64,000 bases of DNA from Bacteroidia bacterium. Lineage in GTDB: Bacteria > Bacteroidota > Bacteroidia > B-17B0 > Aurantibacillaceae. The position numbers and the translations under genes were made by a program. The notes below the pieces were generated by a model, which was given only the letters and a program-made list of their open reading frames with translations, did no database searches and was not told the DNA's origin. Position 1 is the first letter of the stretch, and each line of letters starts with the position of its first letter. Shown piece by piece: positions 10,930 to 20,036 of the stretch. Where the stretch lies: NCBI GenBank assembly GCA_016787895.1, contig JAEUTN010000014.1, positions 496,001-560,000 of the forward strand, given 5' to 3'.

Positions 10930-11259
10930 ATGCCAGCCATCATTGTTACTAAAAATACGGAGTTAATGCAGAGAGTCATCGACGAGATCAAAACCTGCTA
11001 CGATCCTGAAATTCCGGTCGATATTTGGGAGTTGGGACTCATTTACGAATTGCACCTTGATGAGGAAAACAATTTAAAGATTGTGATGACCCTCACGTCT
11101 CCTAATTGTCCGGTTGCCGAAAGTTTGCCGGCCGAGGTTGAAAATAAACTGAAGTTGCTGCCGGGAATTGCCTCCGCAGAATTAAAACTCACCTTTGAAC
11201 CGCCCTGGGAAAAAGACATGATGAGCGAAGTAGCCCAGCTGGAGCTTGGGTTTATGTAA
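10930..11259 (+). CDS. sufT: DUF59/MIP18-family Fe-S maturation protein (SufT-like)
   Basis: Stand-alone DUF59 proteins, often named SufT, help mature or transfer Fe-S clusters. This 109-residue protein has the hallmark DPEIPVDIWELGLIY (~28-42), TSPNCPVAESLP with the conserved cysteine (~62), and the C-terminal FEPPWEKDMMSEVAQLELGF. It closes the operon, two bases after sufE. No terminator hairpin is visible after it; a structured repeat lies downstream at 11412-11559. Confidence 0.93.
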   Translation: MPAIIVTKNTELMQRVIDEIKTCYDPEIPVDIWELGLIYELHLDEENNLKIVMTLTSPNCPVAESLPAEVENKLKLLPGIASAELKLTFEPPWEKDMMSEVAQLELGFM

Positions 11260-11340
11260 AAATAAAGTCACCCTTTTAATAGATTCACTTAAAATCTTCA
11301 ATATTTAGCACACTAATTTCTTTTTGGTCTTGTTAATCGG

Positions 11341-11383
11341 TCTTCGACTCCCTGCCCGTCCGGCAGGCGGGTGCTCAGACTGA
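11341..11383. repeat. Palindromic intergenic repeat (TTCGACT...GCTCAG type with inserted hairpin)
   Basis: The flanks TTCGACTCC and GCTCAGACTGACA look like one short motif split by a GC-rich inverted repeat, CCTGCC (11351-11356) and GGCAGG (11362-11367) around CGTCC. Its base composition is unlike the AT-rich flanks. It lies inside the 374-nt gap between sufT and clpX; the first ~80 nt of that gap hold nothing I can identify. A mobile or REP-like short repeat is likely, but only one copy is present here. Confidence 0.45.
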
Positions 11384-11411
11384 CAATCGACTCGGCTCGT
11401 ATTTTATTGCT

Positions 11412-11559
11412 GCGTGAGGGATGCGAAAGGTTTAGCTCTTTTTTGATGAGGGCCTTAGCCCGAAATCAAAAAAAGCCGGAGCGCAGCGGAGCCTGAAGCA
11501 GCCCGACCCCTGAAGCGAGGCCTGTGTTTTAAGGTATGCCTCAGCTTAAGGGGACACGC
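11412..11559 (+). repeat. Structured intergenic element, copy 1 (three-stem junction)
   Basis: Closing helix P1: GCGTG (11412-11416) pairs with CACGC (11555-11559). Inside, AGGGATGCG is followed by P2, a long hairpin of GCTCTTTTTTGAT with ATCAAAAAAAGC capped by GGGC-CTTA-GCCC. After CCGGAGCGCAGCGGAGCC comes AGCAGCCCGA, then P3, CCCCTGAAGCGAGGC with GCCTCAGCTTAAGGGG, and one unpaired base before P1 closes. The same plan with different bases recurs at 18706-18847. It may be a structured RNA or a folded mobile DNA repeat. It is not coding. Confidence 0.65.
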
Positions 11560-11633: not shown

Positions 11634-12878
11634 ATGGCAAAAGATACCGGAATACGCTGTTCCCTCTGCGGGAGAGACAAAAAAGAAAGTAAAATTTTAA
11701 TCGCGGGCATTAACGGGCACGTGTGCGATGCCTGCATTCAACAAGCCCACAACATTATTAAAGAAGAAAGCGTTGGAGAACAGAAACAACAGATTCAACA
11801 CGCCCTGAATTTACTGAAACCTCAGGCCATTAAACAAAAACTGGACGAGTACGTCATTGGTCAGGATGAGGCCAAAAAAGTGCTGAGTGTGGCGGTGTAC
11901 AACCATTTTAAACGCATCAGCCACGCTTCTAAAAACAACAAGGAGGAGATTGAGATTGATAAATCCAACCTCATTTTAGTGGGTGAAACCGGTACCGGTA
12001 AAACCCTGCTGGCCCGCACCATTGCCAACATGCTGCAGGTGCCCTTTTGTATTGCCGATGCTACCGTGTTAACCGAAGCCGGTTATGTGGGCGAAGATGT
12101 GGAAAGTGTGTTGACCCGTTTGTTGCAGGCCGCCGATTACGATGTGGCAGCGGCCGAACGCGGCATTGTTTTTATTGATGAAATTGATAAAATTGCCCGT
12201 AAAAGCGATAACCCTTCGATTACCCGCGATGTGAGCGGTGAAGGCGTGCAGCAGGCCATGCTGAAATTGCTGGAAGGCACCACGGTGAATGTGCCCCCAC
12301 AAGGCGGACGCAAACACCCCGACGCCAAAATGATACAGGTGAACACCAAAAACATTTTATTTATTTGCGGAGGGGCGTTTGATGGCATTGAGAAAAAAAT
12401 TGCCAAGCGTTTGAACACCCAGGCCATGGGTTTTACCGCATCCATCAACCAAAACGAAATCGACAAAGGCAATTTGCTGCAATACGTTTCGCCTCAGGAT
12501 TTAAAATCCTTTGGTTTAATTCCCGAACTCATCGGACGTTTGCCGGTGCTTACCTACCTGAAACCTTTGGACCGTGCCACCCTAAGGGCCATTTTAACTG
12601 AGCCCAAAAACGCGCTTATCAAACAATACGTGCATCTGTTTAAAATGGAAGGCACCAAGCTGGAGTTCGAAAACGAAGTGCTGGATTTAATTGTTGACAA
12701 AGCCCTTGAGTTTAAATTGGGTGCCAGAGGTCTGCGTGGCATTTGCGAAGCCATTATGACGGATTTAATGTACAGCTTGCCTTCGGAAGAAAAATCTGTG
12801 AAACATTACCTGGTGACATTGGATTACGCTTTGGACAAACTCAACAACGCGCGCCTGAGCCAGTTGAGGGTGGCTTAA
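11634..12878 (+). CDS. clpX: ATP-dependent Clp protease ATP-binding subunit ClpX
   Basis: ClpX is a hexameric AAA+ unfoldase that feeds tagged proteins to ClpP. The 414-residue protein has the N-terminal zinc-binding domain (CSLCG...CDAC, residues 9-34), Walker [12 protein letters not shown] (~118), the pore loop GYVGEDV, Walker [12 protein letters not shown], the RKH loop in [10 protein letters not shown] and the arginine-bearing sensor GARGLRGI. The partner clpP is not in this window. The gene has its own short-leader promoter. Its stop overlaps by 4 nt the 3' end of the convergent nucleotidyltransferase gene. Confidence 0.98.
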
Positions 12879-13363
12879 CGTCCTTTGCTGCTCTGCATTT
12901 TTCGGATTTTTTCAAGTTCTTCCACATCCAAGAGATCCTTTGGTCTGGCAGAAGCTTTTTTCGCTTCAATCAGTTGGTTAATGTGTAAAAACTTAACGGG
13001 AATTTCTTCAATTAATGCAGTTGGTGAAATCTGATAACATTCATCAAATTCAATTTGTTTTAACCCTGTTAAGTAACTCATGATGTCCAGTTCAAATCCT
13101 GAGCCCAAGCTTATGCTGGTGTAGCCGGGCACAAACTCCGTTGTTTCTATACTTTCAAAATCACCAAGCCCCAATTCATGAAGGGCTTTTCTTAAACGCT
13201 TTCTATTTTCAACATCATCTTTAATCCAAATATCAATGTCCTCCGTCATGCGATTAAACCCGTGAAGCGAACAGGCAAAGCCCCCAACCATAATGTATTT
13301 GGTTTGGTTTTTGTGCAGCAGGCGCCACAAATTGAGAATATCCTCATCCAGGTAATCCATCAC
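12875..13363 (-). CDS. Nucleotidyltransferase-fold protein (DUF6036/AbiEii-like)
   Basis: The 162-residue protein carries a polymerase-beta-type nucleotidyltransferase signature: [14 protein letters not shown] then TEDIDIWI (GG followed 13 residues later by DxD, residues ~26-44). A third acidic residue may be in FELDIMSYL. Such proteins occur alone, in toxin-antitoxin-like pairs and in abortive-infection systems; substrate and role here are unknown. It follows, with a 20-nt overlap, a 54-codon gene on the same strand (13344-13508), and its 3' end overlaps clpX by 4 nt tail to tail. A second ATG three bases inside the start is equally possible. Confidence 0.7.
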
Positions 13364-13508: not shown

Positions 13509-13605
13509 GGATGCAAAGCCTAAGGTACAAATTTAATAGATGACCTAAAAGGTCTCTATTTCTGCAGTTATCTCGATTTTTTGGGCGCCGGCCGGGCTTA
13601 ATGTT

Positions 13606-18097: not shown

Positions 18098-18670
18098 ATG
18101 CACATTGGTTTATTTTTCGGCTCTTTTAATCCCATTCACGTAGGGCATTTGGTGTTGGCCAATTACATGCTGGAATTTACACCCATGGAAGAACTCTGGT
18201 TTGTAGTGAGTCCGCACAACCCTTTAAAAGAAAAAAGCAGTCTGTTAAATCAAAACCAGCGTCTGGTGATGGTGAACCTAGCCATTGAGGACCATCCCCG
18301 AATGCGAAGTTCAAGCATAGAGTTCGATTTGCCTCAACCCTCTTATACCATCAACACCTTAGCGCATTTGAAGGAAAAATACCCTCAGCACAACTTTAGT
18401 TTAATTTTGGGTCAGGATAACCTGAAGAGTTTTAGCAAGTGGAAAAATTACGAGGCCATTCTACAACACTACGAACTTTATGTGTACCCAAGGCCAGGCG
18501 CTGAGGCCAGCGAATTCGACCAGCACCCTCGTGTGCACCTCACTCAGGCCCCGGTGATGGATATTTCATCCACCTTTATCCGCCAGGCCATAAAAGACAA
18601 AAAAGACATTCGTTATTTTCTTCCGCCCAAGGTTTGGGAAGAAGTGGATGTGATGAATTTGTATAGGTGA
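18098..18670 (+). CDS. nadD: Nicotinate-nucleotide adenylyltransferase
   Basis: NadD adenylates nicotinate mononucleotide to NaAD in NAD synthesis. The 190-residue protein shows the nucleotidyltransferase motif GSFNPIHVGHL (~9-19) and the C-terminal ISSTFIRQAI (~156). The start at 18098 gives the classic opening MHIGLFFGSFNP. The gene is divergent from pabB with 39 nt between starts, so the two promoters must overlap. Confidence 0.95.
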   Translation: MHIGLFFGSFNPIHVGHLVLANYMLEFTPMEELWFVVSPHNPLKEKSSLLNQNQRLVMVNLAIEDHPRMRSSSIEFDLPQPSYTINTLAHLKEKYPQHNFSLILGQDNLKSFSKWKNYEAILQHYELYVYPRPGAEASEFDQHPRVHLTQAPVMDISSTFIRQAIKDKKDIRYFLPPKVWEEVDVMNLYR

Positions 18671-18705
18671 TTCTGAATGATTTTTAAATACTAATGACTT
18701 GATTC

Positions 18706-18847
18706 GCGCCAGGGATTGCAGCGGAAAGCCCGCAGCGTCCACCGAAGCCTTAGCGAAGGTGGGGCGAGGACTTGAAGCGAAAAGCCCGACCCTGACAAGC
18801 AAAAACTTAAGGAGTAGAATTTGGTTTTTGCTTCGTCAGGGGGGCGC
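18706..18847 (+). repeat. Structured intergenic element, copy 2 (three-stem junction)
   Basis: P1: GCGCC (18706-18710) pairs with GGCGC (18843-18847). AGGGATTGC follows, then P2, CCACC with GGTGG around GAAGCCTTAGCGAA, then AAAAGCCCGA, then P3, CCCTGACAAGCAAAAAC with GTTTTTGCTTCGTCAGGG (17 pairs, one bulge), and one base before P1 closes. Conserved with copy 1 at 11412-11559 are AGGGAT, the GCCTTAGC apex and AGCCCGACCC; the helices differ but stay paired. It lies between nadD and the convergent M28 peptidase gene. It is not coding. Confidence 0.65.
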
Positions 18848-18881: not shown

Positions 18882-20036
18882 TCAGAACCCCCTCACAAAA
18901 TCAGTGATGAGCTTAAACACATCCTGGTATTCCGCTAAAGGAAGGGTTTTTTCAATGTCGTACACATCGTGGTAGGCCTTAATACCCCCCATGGTATACA
19001 TAAAAAAGCAAGGCACCCCCGCTTCGGTAAACCAATAGTGGTCGCTGTTTTTGGCTTTACCGCGTTTTTTGATTTCAACCAGGTAATGCTGTTGTTCATT
19101 GATGTTTTGAAGTCGTGAAAATTCCTTTTCGTGAATGGCCCCATTCACCACCATAATGCCTTCTTCTCCGGTGCCCATTAGATCGAGGTTCAGCAGAAAT
19201 TTGATTTTTTTAGTGTCGAGTGTTTTACTCTCTACAAAATACTTTGAACCGATTAAACCCGCCTCTTCACCGGCAAAAAACACAAACACGGTTTTGTATT
19301 TTGGGGGATAGGCCATGTAATGTTTCATCAGATTTAAAAGCATGCTCACTCCGCTGGCGTTATCGTTGGCTCCGGGGAAATAGGTTTTTTTGCCAAGGCC
19401 TCCCAAATGGTCGTAATGCGCTGTAAATACCATACAGGTGTCGTTACTCACTGATCCGGGCACAAAGGCACAAATATTTTTGCTAATGAATTTGGTCAGC
19501 ACCTTGGCGTCCAGTTGTACTTCCGCAGTTTTTGGCTTATCCGGACAAGAGGTTTTCAGCACATCGAGCAGTCCCAATGCAACACTATTGCTCGCCACGC
19601 TAAAGGTTAACTTGTTTTTTAAACTCAGCAGCAATTTCCCGCTTTCGTTCACACCCACAAAGGTCACGCTGTCTTTTTGTTCCAGCGTAAACTTTCCTTT
19701 CAGGCTTCTACTTTGTGGATCGGGAATAAAATCAAAGCCGGGTTTTAAAACTTTGTTGTTGAGCTTTAAACTCACTTTATCGGGAAAAGTGTTCACGTTA
19801 AAATCGAACCACTGGTGGTAGCCGGTAGCAAACAATTGTTGAGCGCCAATCTTTTTTATTTCTGCGGTAATGTAGTCGGCTGATTTTTCAAGCCCTCCTT
19901 TAAGATATCCTCTGCCATAAAAAGCAGGGGAACAAAGTTGCCGTAACACCGTTGTTGTGTAAACCATGTCCTGAGCAGGGAGCGAAAAGCAAAAAACAAG
20001 TGCAAAAGCAACAGCGAAAAAAGACGGACGTTTCAT
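18882..20036 (-). CDS. M28-family zinc metallopeptidase, exported
   Basis: M28 enzymes are dizinc aminopeptidases or carboxypeptidases. The 384-residue protein begins with a signal peptide (MKRPSFFAVAFALVFCFSLP). The five metal ligands appear in order: His in TAHYDHLGG, Asp in PGANDNASG, Glu in FVFFAGEEAG, Asp in LNLDLMG and His in NSDHYWFTEAG. No T9SS tail is present, so it is probably periplasmic. Its ATG overlaps the stop of the upstream 187-residue gene (ATGA), showing coupling. Confidence 0.9.
   Translation of the reverse strand: MKRPSFFAVAFALVFCFSLPAQDMVYTTTVLRQLCSPAFYGRGYLKGGLEKSADYITAEIKKIGAQQLFATGYHQWFDFNVNTFPDKVSLKLNNKVLKPGFDFIPDPQSRSLKGKFTLEQKDSVTFVGVNESGKLLLSLKNKLTFSVASNSVALGLLDVLKTSCPDKPKTAEVQLDAKVLTKFISKNICAFVPGSVSNDTCMVFTAHYDHLGGLGKKTYFPGANDNASGVSMLLNLMKHYMAYPPKYKTVFVFFAGEEAGLIGSKYFVESKTLDTKKIKFLLNLDLMGTGEEGIMVVNGAIHEKEFSRLQNINEQQHYLVEIKKRGKAKNSDHYWFTEAGVPCFFMYTMGGIKAYHDVYDIEKTLPLAEYQDVFKLITDFVRGF

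Follow-up and report, generated by a model that had tools for sequence, protein, structure and literature searches.

Flavo-1 RNA (Rfam RF01705) was described by Weinberg et al. in 2010 (PMC2864571) and a 2022 survey (PMC9029176) counts it among the most abundant families of bacterial "sRNA". Transcriptome data from F. psychrophilum place Flavo-1 "indistinctly" in either direction, sense or antisense, and frequently beyond transcripts; some matches coincide with structured 5′ transcribed regions, and no strand-specific Flavo-1 RNA is supported (PMC9723704). The element considered here is a three-way junction of the helices P1, P2, and P3. It shares with Flavo-1 the core GAUUGnAGCGGAAnnCC...GnnUGnAGCGnAAAGC, which is its P2 arm, as well as the phylum and the high copy number. 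The Rfam model (76 nt, filed as "Gene; sRNA") differs from it in lacking P1, P3, and a second class of P2 arm, and the CC/GG at the base of the Rfam consensus P2 stands in another flanking frame, the GGG/CCC of the element being placed within P1–P3.

Three other systems are comparable in part. Like the REP sequences of RAYT (TnpA_REP) transposases, the copies are dispersed, non-coding, intergenic hairpins without target-site duplication, but they have no GT[AG]G foot and no flanking RAYT gene (~70 loci), form a three-way junction rather than a single hairpin, and have mosaic arms. RAYT subclass 2.6 is known from Bacteroidetes, and the GT[AG]G foot is not required of this subclass (PMC6006769). 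With MITEs the element has in common that it is short, non-coding, and present in high copy number with a short terminal inverted repeat; it differs in the lack of a target-site duplication, in that no parental IS was found in 1.6 Mb of fetched loci, and in its structurally constrained interior. Integron attC sites are likewise imperfect palindromes in which the fold matters more than the sequence, whereas the copies of the element stand singly beside housekeeping genes and not in cassette arrays.

Structure of the Copies in the Window

The window, i.e., the whole stretch of 64,000 nucleotides that was analyzed, contains two copies of the element and the remnant of a third. Copy 1 (11412–11559, + strand) is a three-way junction that lies between a sufT-like gene (ORF 10930–11259) and clpX (11634–12878); it scores 128.6 bits (E = 3.6e-30, own genome) with R1, a covariance model built on seven copies from the same genome (G000), and has an orthologue in the sister genome G013. 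Its P1 pairs GCGTG (11412–11416, + strand) with CACGC (11555–11559, + strand), which is followed by CC and an A-rich right flank. AGGGAT is at positions 11417–11422 and AGCCCGA at 11500–11506; the P2 arm (11418–11504, + strand) is closed by GGG(AT)/(AG)CCC and belongs to the class "GCGnAGGGTTTAGCTCTTTT", and P3 is formed by CCCCTGAAGCGAGGC and GCCTCAGCTTAAGGGG (11507–11553, + strand). This P3 is common to copies L018 and L026 of the same genome (similarity 0.88–0.90), whose P2 arms differ from that of copy 1. In the relatives G010 and G017, only ~30 bp separate the sufT-like gene from clpX at the site that copy 1 occupies in the window.

Another palindromic repeat (GGTCTTCGACTCC...GCTCAGACTGACA) is found directly to the left of copy 1, at positions 11339–11394, and 49 nt of it recur at 94% to the left of the own-genome copy L017.

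Copy 2 (18706–18847, + strand; 86.5 bits, E = 3.5e-19 with R1), which also has an orthologue in G013, lies between a nadD-like gene (ORF ending at 18670) and a peptidase-like gene (18882–20036, − strand). Here, P1 pairs GCGCC (18706–18710, + strand) with GGCGC (18843–18847, + strand), AGGGAT is at positions 18711–18716, AGCCCGA is at 18783–18789, and the P2 arm (18712–18787, + strand) is Flavo-1-like. The P3 arm (18790–18841, + strand), CCCTGAC..AAGCAAAAAC paired with GTTTTTGCTT..GTCAGGG, is followed by one base and the closing strand of P1. It is common to copy L030 (0.91), whose P2 is unrelated.

Both elements with this P1/AGGGAT/P2/AGCCCGA/P3 plan, including the two different P1 helices, had been proposed in a sequence-only reading of the window, and both were found as proposed. 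Folded as single-stranded DNA, copy 1 has −34 kcal/mol compared with ~−21 kcal/mol in dinucleotide shuffles (z = −4.4), and copy 2 has −33 compared with ~−22 kcal/mol (z = −4.0), with 0/200 shuffles reaching the observed value in either case. The same reading took a shared GCCTTAGC apex as a feature of the family, which did not hold, since other copies have unrelated apices and the P2 arms of copies 1 and 2 are of different classes.

The remnant of the third copy (13577–13598, − strand) is downstream of clpX and consists of the right end, TTTTTTGGGCGCCGGCCGGGCT on the + strand. At this site, G013 has a complete copy, and the remnant in G000 looks like the product of a deletion between GCCGGGCT repeats. 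Also downstream of clpX, at positions 12875–13363 of the − strand, there is a nucleotidyltransferase-like ORF that is absent from G013.

Covariation and Distribution of the Family

The general plan of the element is P1 (5 bp), A, GGGAT, P2, AGCCCGA, P3, one base, and P1. Since the GGG of GGGAT pairs with the CCC of AGCCCG, the two "conserved motifs" together close the P2 arm. Nearly all copies have the layout GCGyn-A-GGGAT-(variable P2)-AGCCCG-(variable or absent P3)-nGCGC-CC, followed by AAAWAA; the ends are sharp, with the right flank AAAWAA and a T-rich left flank.

In the own genome, the search with R1 gave ~30 copies with E < 0.01 (E-values down to 1e-38), and in genomes of the same genus it gave 0–49, so that further copies exist beyond the two from which a covariance model had been suggested. 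In an alignment of 97 copies, 96.3% of paired cells pair, compensatory changes are observed in 26 of the 27 pairs, and the number of doubly changed cells is 459, compared with 123 in shuffles and 38–59 with partners slid. The claim of selection for structure, for which the compensatory changes of two copies were weak evidence, is overwhelmingly supported at this sample size. The junction motif also covaries, GGG/CCC being replaced by GTG/CAC (L025, L345) or GCG/CGC (L338). In a model-free check on 150 copies, picked by their 5′ pattern with no use of the 3′ arm, 143 had a downstream sequence exactly complementary to the 5′ strand of their P1, compared with 11% for the arms of other copies; P1 types include GCGTG/CACGC, GGGTG/CACCC, GCGCC/GGCGC, and GTGCC/GGCAC.

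The GTDB representative collection contains at least 119 stretches that match a pattern for one P2 class. Among the matches listed, all titles are those of Bacteroidota, and the hosts are Foetidibacter luteolus (dozens), several Flavobacterium, Algibacter, Seonamhaeicola, Mesonia, Chitinophagaceae, Sphingobacteriaceae, and Tannerellaceae. No gene family was convincingly recurrent beside independent copies; a RAYT cluster in the neighbor search consists of loci fetched on purpose.

Two observations concern the left side of the element. In the copies at the Foetidibacter luteolus loci L180–L256, the module on the left is either GCAGCnTGTTnCACnTT or GGTAACCnGCAACCGGCTTTC, joined to the same P2, which suggests a third exchangeable module. 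Several copies (left flank of L026, L336, L349) have a second, long structured repeat (GCGTGAGGnCC...CGACCGAAAGC...GGCAACAAACCnGT...CATGTTTGTCCTGAGCGAG) directly on their left and thus form composite arrays.

Relation to Flavo-1

A scan of the window with Rfam at the gathering cut-off, which is 42 bits for RF01705, gave nothing. An E-value scan of a short stretch gave Flavo-1 at 18703–18795, below this cut-off (35.5 bits, E = 2.9e-6). Copy 2 aligned over the whole RF01705 model (1–76), with the conserved P2 core (GAUUGnAGCGGAA...UGnAGCGnAAAGC) present; copy 1 is without this core, and its P2 has no match in Rfam, Flavo-1 included. The comparison with Rfam that the sequence-only reading had suggested ties copy 2 to a known family and leaves copy 1 unmatched. 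Other copies exceed the cut-off, namely L026 (53.7 bits) and L028 (47 bits) in the own genome, L053 (64.9 bits) in a congener, and most of the Flavobacteriia copies tested. Because of these matches, together with that of copy 2, Flavo-1 is, as judged from alignment to the Rfam model, the P2 arm of the element, this arm belonging to Flavo-1 or being its sister. The numbers of Flavo-1 matches per genome are at least 112 in F. psychrophilum, at least 105 in F. ichthyis, and at least 105 in Foetidibacter (146 candidates scored); matches were found in 22 of 148 Bacteroidota genomes in an even sample and in none of 14 control genomes.

The two P2 classes are linked by one orthologous site, at which L020 in G000 has a P2 of the copy 1 type and L342 in G013 has a Flavo-1-like P2, the two copies sharing P1 (GCGTT/AACGC) and the right flank and having related P3 arms. 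On this basis, the copy 1 class and the Flavo-1-like class belong to one family.

The proposal of a candidate new RNA or folded DNA repeat family, and with it the earlier interpretation as a whole, is thus partly supported: a structured, covarying, multi-copy intergenic repeat is present, but its P2 arm is not new. No earlier description of the full P1–P2–P3 element was found in the open-access literature, and as far as that literature shows, the novelty appears to lie in the three-way-junction frame, in the second class of P2 arm, and in the swapping of arms.

Mosaic Arrangement of the Arms

Among 25 own-genome copies, similarity in P2 and similarity in P3 are unlinked. Copies L018 and L026 are nearly identical in P3 (0.98) and dissimilar in P2 (0.22), and L026 and L028 are alike in P2 (0.94) and less so in P3 (0.45). 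Eight pairs are alike in P2 and six in P3 in G000, and two and two, respectively, in G013, with no pair alike in both arms. As a rule, this absence is contradicted by G009, with two pairs alike in both arms, and G017, with 14 of 45 comparable pairs, which means that whole-element amplification also occurs; since the arms travel together in G017, exchange of arms does not hold for every genome. Where non-orthologous copies match, the match mostly starts at P1 and stops at the P2/P3 junction or at the right end.

The sister genomes G000 and G013 are ~93% identical at the window loci, and 15 sites are apparently occupied in both. L025 and L345 have near-identical flanks on both sides but another P2 apex, L020 and L342 differ in the entire P2, and the pairs L026/L129 and L040/L350 have changed further, with conservation of the right flank. 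The sites of the G013 copies L347 and L344 correspond to a short element-free gap in G000. For six copies found in G013 only, clean empty sites were sought in G000, which gave these two element-free regions and no exact insertion point; whole intergenic regions differ. Overall, the arm comparisons show that the copies are, at the sequence level, mosaics in which P2 and P3 combine independently and in which sister species have different arms at orthologous sites.

DNA-Level or RNA-Level Structure

RNA tolerates G-U pairs and not A-C pairs, while pairing at the DNA level favors neither. Among the paired cells of the 97-copy alignment, we counted 25 G-T and 27 A-C pairs; G-T makes up 1.2% of standard pairs, compared with a yardstick of 9.2% G-U in 13 tRNAs from the same loci, and it should be noted that fitting the alignment to the model should, if anything, have biased the count toward G-U. 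The gene contexts of the own copies are +/+ in 8 cases, −/+ in 7, −/− in 7, and +/− in 5, divergent promoter regions included, and across the phylum the four configurations number 26/15/14/11. There is no U-tail of an intrinsic terminator in either reading direction, because of the AAAWAA right flank and the T-rich left flank; a terminator search found none at copy 1 and one weak match, near chance level, inside copy 2. Since G-T is not above A-C, all four gene orientations occur, and there is no U-tail, the data favor an element that acts as folded DNA rather than RNA. Between the two alternatives that the earlier proposal had named, the transcriptome of F. psychrophilum also points to DNA. 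As some Flavo-1 copies are transcribed in that species, a subset of copies may have an RNA role.

The strong covariation would equally be expected if, as the Rfam classification as sRNA implies, the copies were genuine non-coding RNAs, each transcribed and with its RNA fold kept by selection, and the Flavo-1 matches at structured 5′ transcribed regions of F. psychrophilum agree with this. The count of G-T against A-C pairs, the mixed orientation with divergent intergenic regions, the many F. psychrophilum matches that lie outside transcribed regions and are indifferent to sense, and the presence of up to 100 or more divergent mosaic copies per genome speak against it, and we regard it as unlikely. 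That the copies are chance hairpins or ordinary terminators with an accidental family resemblance has practically no probability: A/T-rich intergenic DNA often contains short hairpins, but the genome matches of R1, with their E-values and ~30 copies, and the covariation in 97 copies refute chance, and the element has no U-tail in either orientation.

Search for a Mobilizing Enzyme

If the copies were moved by a RAYT in the manner of REP sequences, in the context of the Bacteroidetes subclass 2.6 (PMC6006769), intergenic palindromes without target-site duplication would be expected, as is observed. In ~40 genomes, Pfam PF01797 and a profile built on six proteins similar to subclass 2.6 gave ~70 Y1/RAYT loci, from the own genome and relatives. 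Within 1.5 kb of these, there is one full copy (L120/L319, ~300 bp from a RAYT in G018) and one partial copy (L085, by a RAYT in G010); a single full copy is roughly what chance would give and does not amount to a REPtron, in which copies flank the RAYT gene. No copy lies within 1.5 kb of the own-genome Y1 genes, the subclass-2.6-like gene of G010 has another palindrome on its flanks, the GT[AG]G foot is present in 2 of 97 copies, and four genomes with matches gave no Y1 transposase at the sensitivity used, all of which makes this origin improbable. A further origin, as MITEs, i.e., deletion derivatives of an IS moved in trans by a double-strand-cutting transposase, would fit the sharp ends, the short terminal inverted repeat (P1), the A/T-rich right flank, and the whole-element amplification in G017. 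Yet target-site duplications of at least 4 nt were found in 0 of 47 cases (shuffled mean 0.8), the terminal repeat is only 5 bp long, variable, and kept as a helix rather than as a sequence, and the internal arms are under a structural constraint that MITEs do not need, so we consider it very unlikely. The attC boxes RYYYAAC/GTTRRRY were found in 0 of 97 copies, which sets the attC interpretation aside.

Neither the ~70 Y1/RAYT loci nor the search for an ORF-bearing autonomous version, with split halves around an ORF (none in 1.6 Mb of fetched loci), identified a mobilizing enzyme. The copies seen are non-autonomous.

Two other repeat systems were met at these loci. At L085/L099 (G010:C272), the subclass-2.6-like RAYT gene lies between GCACGAGCTACAAGCTCGCGC palindromes, likely its own REP, with the partial copy of the element just beyond. 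At L010 (G000:C2:71642–74986), a Y1 transposase with the subclass-1.2-like motif YIQNQEEHH has GCTCCGTAGGAGC palindromes nearby and is with them another repeat system in G000.

Proposed Mechanism and Implications

We consider it probable that the element is a dispersed, non-coding DNA repeat of Bacteroidota, the P2 arm of which has been described as the Flavo-1 "RNA", and that a putative enzyme recognizes its junction, where arms are exchanged. The element would fold in single-stranded or extruded DNA, for example in the lagging-strand template. A putative DNA-processing enzyme would then recognize the junction (GGGAT/AGCCCGA, with P1 ending in CGCCC-AAA) and copy or move the element, and whole hairpin arms could be swapped if the junction is cut and rejoined or if a template switch takes place there. 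A bolder form of this proposal, which is plausible although we lean slightly against it, is that Flavo-1, rather than being an sRNA, is one of the interchangeable arms in a family of three-way-junction DNA elements found throughout the phylum, which a putative enzyme or replication process would propagate, cutting or switching at the junction and swapping entire arms, including in place at orthologous sites.

The evidence favors the view that the element represents the known Flavo-1 family in a wider form that acts at the DNA level, and not a new RNA. Flavo-1 contributes to RNA counts in Bacteroidota genomes, and if it is a DNA element, such annotations mislead. Counting G-T against A-C pairs is a simple test, applicable to candidate RNA families in general, of whether a structure is one of DNA or of RNA. 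As a DNA element, the family would be a new kind of structure-guided mosaic repeat and would pose a testable problem.
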